Below, one piece after another: positions 29,466 to 54,320 of a stretch of DNA of 64,000 bases. The notes beneath the pieces are model-generated. The model saw only the letters and a list, made by a program, of their open reading frames with translations. It was not told the origin of the DNA and made no database searches. Source of the DNA: Sphaerobacter thermophilus DSM 20745 (GTDB taxonomy: Bacteria > Chloroflexota > Chloroflexia > Thermomicrobiales > Thermomicrobiaceae); NCBI RefSeq assembly GCF_000024985.1, contig NC_013524.1:744001-808000 (forward strand), written 5' to 3'. The translations under genes and the position numbers were made by a program. Within the stretch, counting starts at the first letter, position 1. Each line of letters opens with the position of its first letter.

Positions 29466-30141
29466 ACCATCCTCCTCCAGATTCTGAACCGGTCCCTACC
29501 GCGGGCATAGTACACCGCCCCGCGCCGCGGCGCGAGCGGTGGTGGTGCTCTCTGGCACGCGGCGGCGCGGGGGCAGGGTGGTGGGGCGGTCGCGGTCTGA
29601 CGGAGTGGTGGAAGGGTCTAGCGTGCTAGTACGTGCCCGGGGCTGAAGCCGCCGGGCTCACCATGAAAGCCGGCTAAAGCCGGCTGGGACTAAGCCGGGC
29701 TAACCCCCGGGTGATAGGTGCCCGCCGCCCGGTTAGTGCCCGGGGGTAAACCCCCGGGCTAGGAAGCGAAGTCCACTGAAGGGACTTAGGGCGCTGAGCC
29801 CGGTGGGTGGCCGAATCGGATTCGCCTGAATGTTGCCATCACAGCCCCTTCAGTGGGCTTTCCATCTTCAGCCCGGGGGGTTACCCCCGGGCACCGACCA
29901 CGACGTCGTGATCCTTACGCCACCAAACCCGCGATCCGACGCCAGCGCGGAACCAACCGCGGCGCGGCGCCTCCATGCCACCGATCCCGTGTCCCGACGC
30001 CGTCGCGGCCACCCCCGGCGCACGGCTGATGCCGCGCGGTACCAAAGCGGCGGCGAGAGCCGCCGCACTCCAAGACTGGTCGCCAGCCGGCTTTAGCCGG
30101 CTTTCGTTGTCAGCCGGGGGGTTCACCCCCGGGCACGTGCT
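29466..30141. other. Repeat-filled intergenic region
   Basis: No gene is supported between the VPS10-like gene and ptsI. The first 165 bp hold the upstream region of the VPS10-like gene and show nothing clear. From 29631 to 30138 the sequence is occupied by the second composite inverted repeat. The last few bases adjoin the ptsI stop codon directly. Confidence 0.75.
29631..30138. repeat. Composite nested inverted repeat, copy 2
   Basis: Outer arms: 29631-29687 (ACGTGCCCGGGGCTGAAGCC, then GCCGGCTAAAGCCGGCTGG) and 30083-30138 in reverse. Inner arms: 29736-29786, made of the palindrome CCCGGGGGTAAACCCCCGGG and GAAGTCCACTGAAGGGACT, facing 29843-29893 with CCCCTTCAGTGGGCTTTCC and a matching palindrome. 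The central spacer is 56 bp (29787-29842) and contains GTGGCCGAATCGG. A GCGGCGGC..GCCGCCGC hairpin is at about 30047-30067, here on the right side. The arrangement mirrors copy 1 near 9.4 kb and copy 3 near 47.6 kb. Confidence 0.85.
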
Positions 30142-49206: not shown

Positions 49207-49372
49207 CGCGTCATACGTGATGCGTCATCCGTCATCCGACTTTGTGCATGCTGACCCGAGACAAGAGGACAACACCGATGACAGAGCACGGAACGCGGAA
49301 CACGCAATAGGCAGCACTCGTCACGATTGACGCATGACGCATGACGGATGACGCATGACGCCTGACGACGGG
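49207..49372. repeat. TGCGTCA-type repeat between moxR and DUF58
   Basis: The gap is built of related words: CGTCATACGTGATGCGTCA (49209-49227), CATCCGTCATCCG, then GCACGGAACGCGGAACACGC near 49285, and finally TGACGCATGACGCATGACGG followed by ATGACGCATGACGCCTGACG to 49368. The DUF58 start codon at 49355 lies within the last run. The same words occur at 34.3, 35.2 and 59.2 kb. Confidence 0.65.
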
Positions 49373-52035: not shown

Positions 52036-52821
52036 CTACGGGCGCAGAAAATCCCCCTTGCGGACGCTCTCAATGGTGAGGCCGAGCAGCTCAGCTGCCT
52101 CCACGAGCCCTGTGTCGTCGGGGTGGATCGTCTCCGTGGGACACGGGTGGTGGACCATGCGTGTGTCGAAGATCGCCCAGCATTCCCAGTCCGGGTTGAG
52201 GCGGGAGGGATAGCGAATCCCGGCATAGAGCGGGTTACCCGCCTCGTCTACCTGCTCGTAGATGTACCGTGCGCAGTCCTGAGTGAAGCGCCGCTGTCTG
52301 CTCGTGATCGTGCTGAGATCGATGTCGTCGATTCCCAGTTCGGCCGCACGCTTTGCCAAAGCTGTGCGTAGGTGCGTCATCGTCTGGGGTGCGGCAAGGT
52401 CGACGAACCGCAGTGAGGGATCGAGGTATGTCACGCCGACGCGGCGTCTCAGACGCCAGTCGCTCGGAACCAAACCTCGTCGGGGGTCCTCAGGATCCAC
52501 TACTCCCCGCAGTGTCTCCACAAGCGGTTCATCATCAACAACATCATCGACATCGGCGAGTTGCGCGATAAGCTCCAGCGACGGACGCATCCGGGCAATC
52601 GTCTCGCCGAAGGCAGCCGCTCGTTGTGTTGCGCAGTAGATGGTACGGAAGCGCTCTGACTCGGGAATCCCAACCAGGGCGCCGGGATCGTCGGATCGGT
52701 TCCCGAATGTCCCGTCGTCGTCTGCATATTCCCATGGCGGTGGCGCGAACGGGTCGGCGCCGCGCGCAACCCGGTAAACGGGGGTGTCGGGCGGCGGGAC
52801 CGCAACGAGTTGGCTAACCAC
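52036..52821 (-). CDS. RES-domain toxin
   Basis: The GTG at 52821 overlaps the antitoxin stop by 8 bp and gives 261 residues; a frame to 53034 lies mostly inside the antitoxin gene and is not used. The RES domain shows VYRVARGADPFAPP (Arg), TIYCATQRAAAFGETIAR (Glu), and GIRYPSRLNPDWECWAIFD (Ser), the three conserved residues that name the family. RES toxins (ParT, MbcT) destroy or modify NAD+ or ADP-ribosylate an essential enzyme. A C-terminal extension follows (ETIHPDDTGLVEAAELLG). Together with the upstream Xre/ParS-like gene it is a type II toxin-antitoxin module. Confidence 0.92.
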   Translation of the reverse strand: MVSQLVAVPPPDTPVYRVARGADPFAPPPWEYADDDGTFGNRSDDPGALVGIPESERFRTIYCATQRAAAFGETIARMRPSLELIAQLADVDDVVDDEPLVETLRGVVDPEDPRRGLVPSDWRLRRRVGVTYLDPSLRFVDLAAPQTMTHLRTALAKRAAELGIDDIDLSTITSRQRRFTQDCARYIYEQVDEAGNPLYAGIRYPSRLNPDWECWAIFDTRMVHHPCPTETIHPDDTGLVEAAELLGLTIESVRKGDFLRP

Positions 52822-53203
52822 CGACCACAAATGCCCGCGCCGCGGCCAGGGCCTCGCGGAGTTGTCCCTCGCGGATGACCTCGGCTGGAGAGCGATCGTC
52901 GAGCTGGGGGTTGAGCCCGATAAACCAGGCCTTGACGGTCTGCGGCGAGTCGTGGAGCAGTAAGAGCTGGGCGATCTCGTAGGCCGTCCGGAGGCGCTGC
53001 TCGGTCTCGTGCTCGCGGATCTCCGTGACTTCACCGTTCGCCCAGCGGGAAACGGTCTTCCCGTCCTTGACCCCCGCGATGAAGGCCGTCAGCCGGCGTG
53101 AAAGTACCTCCTGAAGTAGCCCGGCAACCTCAGTTAGTGGAGCCGCGACGGCCTGTCGATGAACCTGCGTGATCGGGTCACTTGCGGTGTTGATGGCTGT
53201 CAT
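52814..53203 (-). CDS. Xre/ParS-like antitoxin (DUF2384 type)
   Basis: The 129-residue protein has a helix-turn-helix-like N-terminal half (EVLSRRLTAFIAGVKDGKTVSRWANGE) and the C-terminal segment AWFIGLNPQLDDRSPAEVI, which is the DUF2384/MbcA-ParS signature that binds the RES toxin. AGGAAG precedes the ATG at 53203. The toxin start overlaps its stop by 8 bp, as is common for antitoxin-first operons. Upstream lie a near-consensus promoter and five 11-bp-phased repeats, probably where the antitoxin or the complex represses its own operon. Confidence 0.9.
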   Translation of the reverse strand: MTAINTASDPITQVHRQAVAAPLTEVAGLLQEVLSRRLTAFIAGVKDGKTVSRWANGEVTEIREHETEQRLRTAYEIAQLLLLHDSPQTVKAWFIGLNPQLDDRSPAEVIREGQLREALAAARAFVVGG

Positions 53204-53221
53204 GACCGCTTCCTGTCTCTG

Positions 53222-53276
53222 CTATGCCTCTCCTATGCCCCGCCAATGCCCTCTCTATGCCCCAACTATACCTCAT
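53222..53276 (-). promoter_or_regulatory. Five 11-bp tandem operator repeats
   Basis: The heptamer CTATGCC, or a one-base variant, starts at 53222, 53233, 53244 (CAATGCC), 53255 and 53266 (CTATACC): exactly one repeat every 11 bp. As 11 is not a multiple of three, this is not coding. One repeat per helical turn would place five protein subunits on one face of the DNA. The array runs from the -10 box through the likely transcription start to near the antitoxin ribosome site, the usual place for autorepression. Confidence 0.8.
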
Positions 53277-53292
53277 GGGTACCGCACGTCAA
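53265..53292 (-). promoter_or_regulatory. Promoter of the toxin-antitoxin operon
   Basis: On the minus strand TTGACG (53287-53292) and TATAGT (53265-53270) are 16 bp apart; both match the consensus in five of six positions. The -10 box overlaps the outermost 11-bp repeat, so occupancy of the array would exclude RNA polymerase. Confidence 0.82.
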
Positions 53293-53318: not shown

Positions 53319-54320
53319 TCACATCCGCACGACGACCCGGCCGCGGACCTGGCCGTGCAGGATGGCGGAGAGGGTGGCCGGGAGGTCGGTGAAGGGGATC
53401 TCCTGGGTGATCGGGTCGAGCAGGCCGGCGGGTTTCCAATCCGTGGCGAGGTGCTGCCAGATCTCGCGGCGTAGATCCATCGGGCACTCGACGGTGTCGA
53501 CCCCGGCCAGTGTCACGCCGCGCAGGATGAAGGGGAAGACGGTCGTCGTCACCGCCGCGCCGCCGGCGACACCGCAGAGAGCCACTGTGCCGCCGTACCG
53601 GGTCGTGCGCAGCAGGTAGGCGGTGGTCGCCCCGCCGACCGGGTCCACGGCGCCGGCCCAGCGCTGGCTCTCCAGCGGGCGCGTGCTCTCGGCCGACGTC
53701 TCCTCCCGCGGCAGGATCTCCTGGGCGCCGAGGCTCCGGAGGTAGTCGTGCTCGGTCGCCTTGCCGGTGCTGGCGGCGACGTGGTAGCCGAGCTGGGCCA
53801 GGATGGAGACGGCGATCGAGCCGACGCCACCGGTGGCGCCGGTGACCAGCACCGGCCCCTGCTCCGGCGTGACGCCGTGCTCGCGCAGGCGGTGCACCGA
53901 GAGCGCGGCGGCCAGCCCGGCGGTGCCCAGAGCCATCGCCTCTTTCGTCGTCAGGCCCTCCGGGAGCGGGAGGACCCACTGGGCGGGGATACGCGCGTAC
54001 TCGCTGTAGCCGCCGAAGTGTGAGACGCCGATCTCGTAGCTGGTGGCCAGCACCTCATCGCCGGGCTGGAAGCGAGGATCCTGCGACTCCACCACTGTGC
54101 CGGCCAGGTCGATCCCCGGCACCATCGGGTAGCGGCGCACGACGCGCCCGGTCGGGATCACCGCGAGTCCGTCCTTGTAGTTCACGCTGGAGTAGGCCAC
54201 GCGGATGGTCACCTCGCCCGGCGGCAGGTCGTCCGGGCGCAGCGTGCGGAAGTCGACGGAGACGTCGTCCCCGTCCTTCTCGACGTACAGGGCGCGAAAC
54301 TCGTTCGGGATCGCGGTCAT
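53319..54320 (-). CDS. YhdH/AcuI-type quinone oxidoreductase
   Basis: The 333-residue protein is a medium-chain dehydrogenase of the zinc-free YhdH group. It begins FRALYVEKDGDDVSV, contains SSVNYKDGLAVIPTG and YPMVPGIDLAGTV, and has the NADP-binding motif VLVTGATGGVGSIAVSIL. The segment LTTKEAMALGTAGLAAALSV is typical. Relatives (AcuI) reduce acryloyl-CoA to propionyl-CoA, protecting cells against this reactive thioester; others have quinone substrates. AAAGGAAAC lies before the ATG. It sits between the TA module and the EEP fusion gene. The exact substrate is not shown by sequence. Confidence 0.92.
   Translation of the reverse strand: MTAIPNEFRALYVEKDGDDVSVDFRTLRPDDLPPGEVTIRVAYSSVNYKDGLAVIPTGRVVRRYPMVPGIDLAGTVVESQDPRFQPGDEVLATSYEIGVSHFGGYSEYARIPAQWVLPLPEGLTTKEAMALGTAGLAAALSVHRLREHGVTPEQGPVLVTGATGGVGSIAVSILAQLGYHVAASTGKATEHDYLRSLGAQEILPREETSAESTRPLESQRWAGAVDPVGGATTAYLLRTTRYGGTVALCGVAGGAAVTTTVFPFILRGVTLAGVDTVECPMDLRREIWQHLATDWKPAGLLDPITQEIPFTDLPATLSAILHGQVRGRVVVRM

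Follow-up and report, generated by a model that had tools for sequence, protein, structure and literature searches.

The five repeats lying over the promoter of a RES/Xre toxin-antitoxin operon in Sphaerobacter thermophilus form, in all likelihood (about 0.8, as judged from sequence), a directional direct-repeat operator of the MbcA type, which would be read by the antitoxin that the operon encodes. They were found in a stretch of 64,000 nucleotides, which is called here the window. The features of the locus are given below, with notes on Bu17, a relative recorded as Sphaerobacter sp. (G113).

53287..53292, minus strand: -35 hexamer TTGACG (TTGACC in Bu17)
53265..53270, minus strand: -10 hexamer TATAGT, 16 bp past the -35 (same letters in Bu17)
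53266..53272, minus strand: unit 1, GGTATAG, overlapping the -10 and holding most of it
53255..53261, minus strand: unit 2, GGCATAG, core retained in Bu17
53244..53250, minus strand: unit 3, GGCATTG, core retained in Bu17
53233..53239, minus strand: unit 4, GGCATAG, core retained in Bu17
53222..53228, minus strand: unit 5, GGCATAG, degenerate in Bu17
53211..53217, minus strand: possible weak sixth in-phase unit, GACAGGA, seen by sequence inspection only and also resembling a ribosome-binding site
52814..53203, minus strand: MbcA-like antitoxin gene, 129 aa, recognition helix at residues 48-55
52036..52821, minus strand: RES-domain toxin gene (PF08808), about 261 aa, with a probable GTG start inferred from the sequence

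On the minus strand the array runs GGTATAG-TTGG-GGCATAG-AGAG-GGCATTG-GCGG-GGCATAG-GAGA-GGCATAG-CAGA, with all four steps being 11 bp. The corresponding plus-strand heptamers start at 53222 (CTATGCC), 53233 (CTATGCC), 53244 (CAATGCC), 53255 (CTATGCC) and 53266 (CTATACC). The original prediction had spoken of five exact repeats at these positions; the starts and the phasing were confirmed, and the letters turned out to be less regular, with three of the five heptamers identical and two deviating by one base each. The column majority was matched at 33 of the 35 array positions, and the array was the top five-unit, seven-column block of the 64-kb window at periods of 8-14 bp (the runner-up reached 29/35, at periods 9 and 12). 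The pattern GGCATAGNNNNGGCATAG, with up to two mismatches allowed, gave four matches, all inside the array (0.23 expected; none of 100 shuffles got to four). We have found no inverted repeat within the array. A looser array pattern revealed no second array anywhere in the 4-Mb genome; because the pattern forms an array nowhere else, a regulon extending beyond the toxin-antitoxin operon found no support.

The window contains other tandem repeats. A TGACGCA tandem of nearly six copies lies at 49328-49367, at the junction of a MoxR-like ATPase gene and a DUF58-like gene, and AAAGCCGGCT occurs as a tandem of two copies whose exact reverse complement, again in two tandem copies, lies about 400 bp off (29666-29685 and 30085-30104).

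The array overlaps the promoter of the operon as had been predicted, with the outermost unit lying across the -10 hexamer and TTGACG placed 16 bp upstream. This minus-strand TTGACG-16-TATAGT element, which agrees with the consensus at 10 of 12 positions, was the sole such promoter in the region. Units 2-5 fall past the -10, where they span the predicted start of transcription and the leader. The array is followed by the antitoxin gene and, adjacent to it, by the toxin gene, the two probably overlapping by about 8 nt (the start codon being inferred). The toxin matched PF08808 above the curated cut-off (E 1.4e-11). Judged by sequence, the two genes have the make-up of a type II RES/Xre (MbcTA) module, with a RES toxin gene and an MbcA-type antitoxin gene upstream of it, in which the toxin would deplete NAD and the antitoxin neutralise it; PADLOC and NCBIfam returned no defence or toxin-antitoxin family. 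The predicted assignment of the array to a RES/Xre module was thus borne out, the operator-like direct repeats standing ahead of both genes.

The window antitoxin is MbcA-like. Its sequence matched Mycobacterium tuberculosis MbcA with an E-value of 1.7e-4, and the PF09722 C-terminal domain weakly (E 0.059, under the cut-off of that family). An AlphaFold2 model built with 47 window and locus sequences as input (pLDDT 94.5) had MbcA as its best fold match (Z 12.2, rmsd 2.7, 107 residues), followed by NatR (Z about 10), a Vibrio parahaemolyticus antitoxin (8.8) and Pseudomonas putida Xre (about 8); unrelated proteins scored 4.4 at most. Repression depends on two recognition-helix residues of MbcA, Arg33 and Arg37 (PMC7291234), whose aligned counterparts in the window antitoxin are Lys49 and Arg53 when a two-residue offset in chain numbering is assumed; among eleven close relatives Arg53 was invariant and Lys49 nearly so. 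A stretch of 22 recognition-helix residues weakly resembled BldC (NF033787, E 0.005), with an NCBIfam score of 16.6 for a cut-off of 77, and BldC was absent among the fold matches listed. Kinship with BldC seems doubtful, the motif match being weak and far under the family cut-off.

Further genes of this kind were observed elsewhere. The same genome carries a second Xre/MbcA-type gene (PF09722) outside the window, at about 813.2-814.1 kb of C2 (L092 1006-1616); a RES-like frame from about L092 1621 seems to end early, and this is probably a broken relative of such a module. A similar antitoxin-like gene lies in Bu17 (L209 6367-6972).

We have then compared the locus with its near relatives. 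The Bu17 antitoxin is 86% identical to that of the window; both promoter hexamers are kept with their 16-bp spacing, and four of the five units (1-4) stand in 11-bp phase, with units 2-4 preserving their GRCA core at exactly that phase. In Bu17, the block from window position 53320 downwards, containing array and module, is retained and adjoins a different neighbour. A congener (G112) gave no antitoxin match and lacks both module and array, its DNA matching the window up to 52013 and again from 53325. From these boundaries, array and module behave as one unit with an edge near 53320-53325. In place of the module, G112 has about 8 kb of unrelated genes (L208 99-8133), which by inspection include a peptide-transport binding protein, a GntR-like regulator and a CocE-like hydrolase. 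Several Thermomicrobiales loci carry two to four GRCAT units in 11-bp steps, and one locus has a 12-bp step: L011 (GACATTCAAGC GGCATTGCACG GACATTCGACG GGCATGCCGGC) and L017 have four units each, L021 has three, and L013 has two, which are spaced at 12 bp.

To cover the family, 150 non-redundant antitoxin loci were collected by a genome-collection scan and whole-genome searches, 144 of them with enough upstream DNA. Identical same-strand 6-mers were counted at distances of 6 to 40 within the 150 nt upstream of the antitoxin and compared with shuffles. The counts peaked at 11 bp (54 pairs vs. a shuffle mean of 8.1, z 16.5), 12 bp (48 vs. 6.6, z 10.2) and 22 bp (26 vs. 7.0, z 8.2), with weaker peaks at 23, 24 and 33 bp and z values of 2.7 or less at other distances. 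Inverted 6-mers gave no comparable peak in the 144 promoters. After thinning at 55% protein identity, which left 62 loci, 11 bp (11/62 loci) and 12 bp (9/62) were the two commonest distances and exceeded all 40 shuffles, which averaged 2.5 and 2.3 and reached at most 6 and 5. Control DNA taken 200-400 bp upstream had no 11-bp excess in mean z; it was raised at 12 bp, and equally at 9, 15, 18 and 21 bp, as in coding DNA. The promoters were not raised at those other multiples of three, so their 12-bp peak is not a coding effect.

The repeated words differed among lineages (GGCAT, GACATT, GTGCAT, CATATCACC, CCGGTAGT), and shared letters therefore fail to explain the shared spacing. Copy number ranged from 2 to 5 or more units across loci, and word quality varied. 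Of 145 loci, 85 lacked exact 6-mer repeats at 11, 12, 22 or 24 bp, and no array was seen in the KQVG branch, which consists mostly of Streptomyces. The TRAVxxW branch was strong at 12 bp (8/26 loci vs. 0.7). In another set of 20 MbcA-like loci, more distant and too small to be a strong test alone, 5-mers recurred most often at 12 bp (9 vs. 2.9, with at most 8 in the shuffles), and 11 bp was unexceptional. We have also considered a clade-specific period, 11 bp in the window clade and 12 bp in others, which looked suggestive by eye, and do not claim it: the tree required 11 changes vs. a shuffled mean of 12.3, and 90 of 300 shuffles gave 11 or fewer. The predicted phasing was thus not lost in relatives, be it in Bu17, in the Thermomicrobiales or across the family. 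The placement of all sites on one face of the DNA, claimed along with it, is not strict, because many relatives step by 12 bp.

Individual loci deserve mention. The most regular array found was in Cryobacterium (L106), where five near-identical units of 12 bp (CATATCACCCGA) occur some 140 bp ahead of the antitoxin, and the regions upstream of divergent MbcA-like genes in two loci (L220, L222) had three units resembling CCGGTAGT at a distance of 12 bp.

Relatives from the Actinomycetota and Chloroflexota, mycobacteria included, carry similar direct-repeat arrays. Three Actinomycetes loci (L210-L212) encode MbcA proper, the L211 protein being about 94% identical to crystallised MbcA over 103 residues. 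The L211 promoter reads GACAGAATGCAT GACACACACGCA GACAAAAGCAA GACAG, with four GACA words in steps of 12, 12 and 11 bp, and L212 is alike; L210 (GACAGAGATAC GACAGAACGAA GACAC) has three, in steps of 11 and 11 bp. These repeats sit just before the gene, near the start codon, and were read from the sequence by inspection, as the automated repeat search omitted such short words. In M. tuberculosis, a two-copy GACAAA direct repeat "separated by 12 bp" was proposed as the mbcAT operator; repression by MbcA needs it and is relieved when the downstream copy is disrupted (PMC7291234). The four-repeat arrays of L211 and L212 extend this published operator and, taken together, the mycobacterial repeats make the window array an extended form of an operator type already known. 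The original prediction had seen the direct array as a departure from an inverted norm, and this did not hold: the rule of palindromic sites derives from the Xre-RES system of P. putida (PMC12204516), and a direct repeat had already been proposed for MbcA (PMC7291234). Searches of the open-access literature found no description of a direct-repeat array operator for MbcA-type antitoxins beyond that paper, in which neither an array nor a chain was proposed. The main addition over the known M. tuberculosis operator is the family-wide 11/12-bp rule.

In the mechanism that we propose, each GRCAT-like unit would be bound by one antitoxin molecule through its helix-turn-helix. With the units co-oriented and about one per DNA turn, antitoxins could follow one another in head-to-tail order from the -10 across the start of transcription. 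Occupation of unit 1 and its neighbours would block RNA polymerase, and the operon would repress itself. When toxin exceeds antitoxin, the recognition surface would be hidden in the toxin complex, leaving the sites empty and the operon re-expressed. In M. tuberculosis, repression by MbcA is as strong in the absence of toxin as in its presence, and within the complex the helix-turn-helix is covered by the toxin (PMC7291234); the operon is therefore most simply read as sensing free antitoxin. A response graded by the toxin:antitoxin ratio, as originally predicted, is conceivable, although the M. tuberculosis repression was independent of toxin.

The toxin-antitoxin complex might read the array in place of free antitoxin, with toxin dimers holding several antitoxins that would occupy adjacent units jointly, and excess toxin dissolving the complex (conditional cooperativity). 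The P. putida and Pseudomonas aeruginosa relatives do bind DNA only as a 4:2 antitoxin:toxin complex, the form in which they repress (PMC12204516, PMC11535050), and MbcTA assembles as a dodecamer (PMC7291234). We consider this less likely here, as the toxin-independent repression just described is that of the nearest fold match, which has a similar operator, and as the antitoxin pairs of such a complex, being related by a two-fold axis, suit inverted sites, which were seen neither in the array nor in the 144 promoters.

No better placed is a set of independent antitoxin sites without neighbour contacts, where extra copies only raise the local occupancy. The variation in copy number and word quality would agree with it, whereas a spacing held at 11 or 12 bp across lineages with different words is something that independent sites would not need. 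Contacts between neighbours are likely for the same reason, the spacing staying constant while the letters drift, and cooperative, filament-like assembly on the array is plausible. BldC and omega show that such protein chains on DNA exist (PMC5859096, PMC4803016).

Action of the repeats in the leader mRNA, where GGCAUAG units would fold or be bound as RNA, is very improbable. Units 2-5 are probably transcribed, as they lie past the -10, but unit 1 is inside it, folding of the leader is no better than that of shuffled sequence (z 0.53), the GRCA triples of a Cryobacterium branch (L103, L079) are on the template strand, and the M. tuberculosis operator works via a DNA-binding helix (PMC7291234). 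Least probable of all is a chance or mutational tandem repeat with no function: such short repeats arise easily and the clade of the window has few members, but core and phase are conserved in Bu17 and other loci, the distance peaks are family-wide and the array is unique in its genome.

The proposed binding of the free antitoxin to direct repeats can be set against several known systems. Like M. tuberculosis mbcAT, the window locus has a RES toxin, an MbcA-like antitoxin and direct repeats with a GRCA core close to the -10 and the start codon, with K49 and R53 as counterparts of the two basic recognition-helix residues needed there for autorepression; unlike mbcAT, with its two GACAAA copies, it has five units in strict 11-bp steps, of which the first lies within the -10. 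P. putida Xre-RES shares the RES toxin and a Xre/MbcA-fold antitoxin that represses its own operon. There, a 4:2 complex binds an imperfect inverted repeat and the antitoxin alone is a weak repressor (PMC12204516), whereas neither the window array nor the 144 homologous promoters showed an inverted signal of that type. BldC of Streptomyces binds head to tail on direct repeats that vary in number, as proposed for the window, but has a winged MerR-like fold and 9-bp repeats, so that the analogy concerns the binding mode only (PMC5859096). The omega regulator of omega-epsilon-zeta is a toxin-antitoxin-linked repressor proposed to polymerise on short-repeat arrays; it differs in being a ribbon-helix-helix protein, in its 7-bp repeats and in being separate from the antitoxin (PMC4803016). 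According to the work cited in PMC9426499, ParR/parC of plasmid R1 has tandem 11-bp direct repeats near a promoter and cooperative binding, the system serving plasmid partition with a ribbon-helix-helix protein.

MbcA-type antitoxins probably silence the operons that encode them by assembling in a row on the DNA. At somewhat less than even odds, we would extend this to a general scheme, in which those of Actinomycetota and Chloroflexota form a directional head-to-tail chain of monomers on operators in which two to five or more units stand in tandem at 11/12-bp steps, unlike the palindrome-bound 4:2 Xre-RES of proteobacteria, with array length setting the free-antitoxin threshold for switching. 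The results suggest that one antitoxin fold reads DNA in two ways, as symmetric complexes on palindromes in proteobacteria and on direct-repeat arrays in Actinomycetota and Chloroflexota, including mycobacteria. If true, models of RES autoregulation would shift to the sensing of free antitoxin instead of the complex, and such operators could be found by a sequence rule, namely similar words every 11-12 bp around the transcription start.
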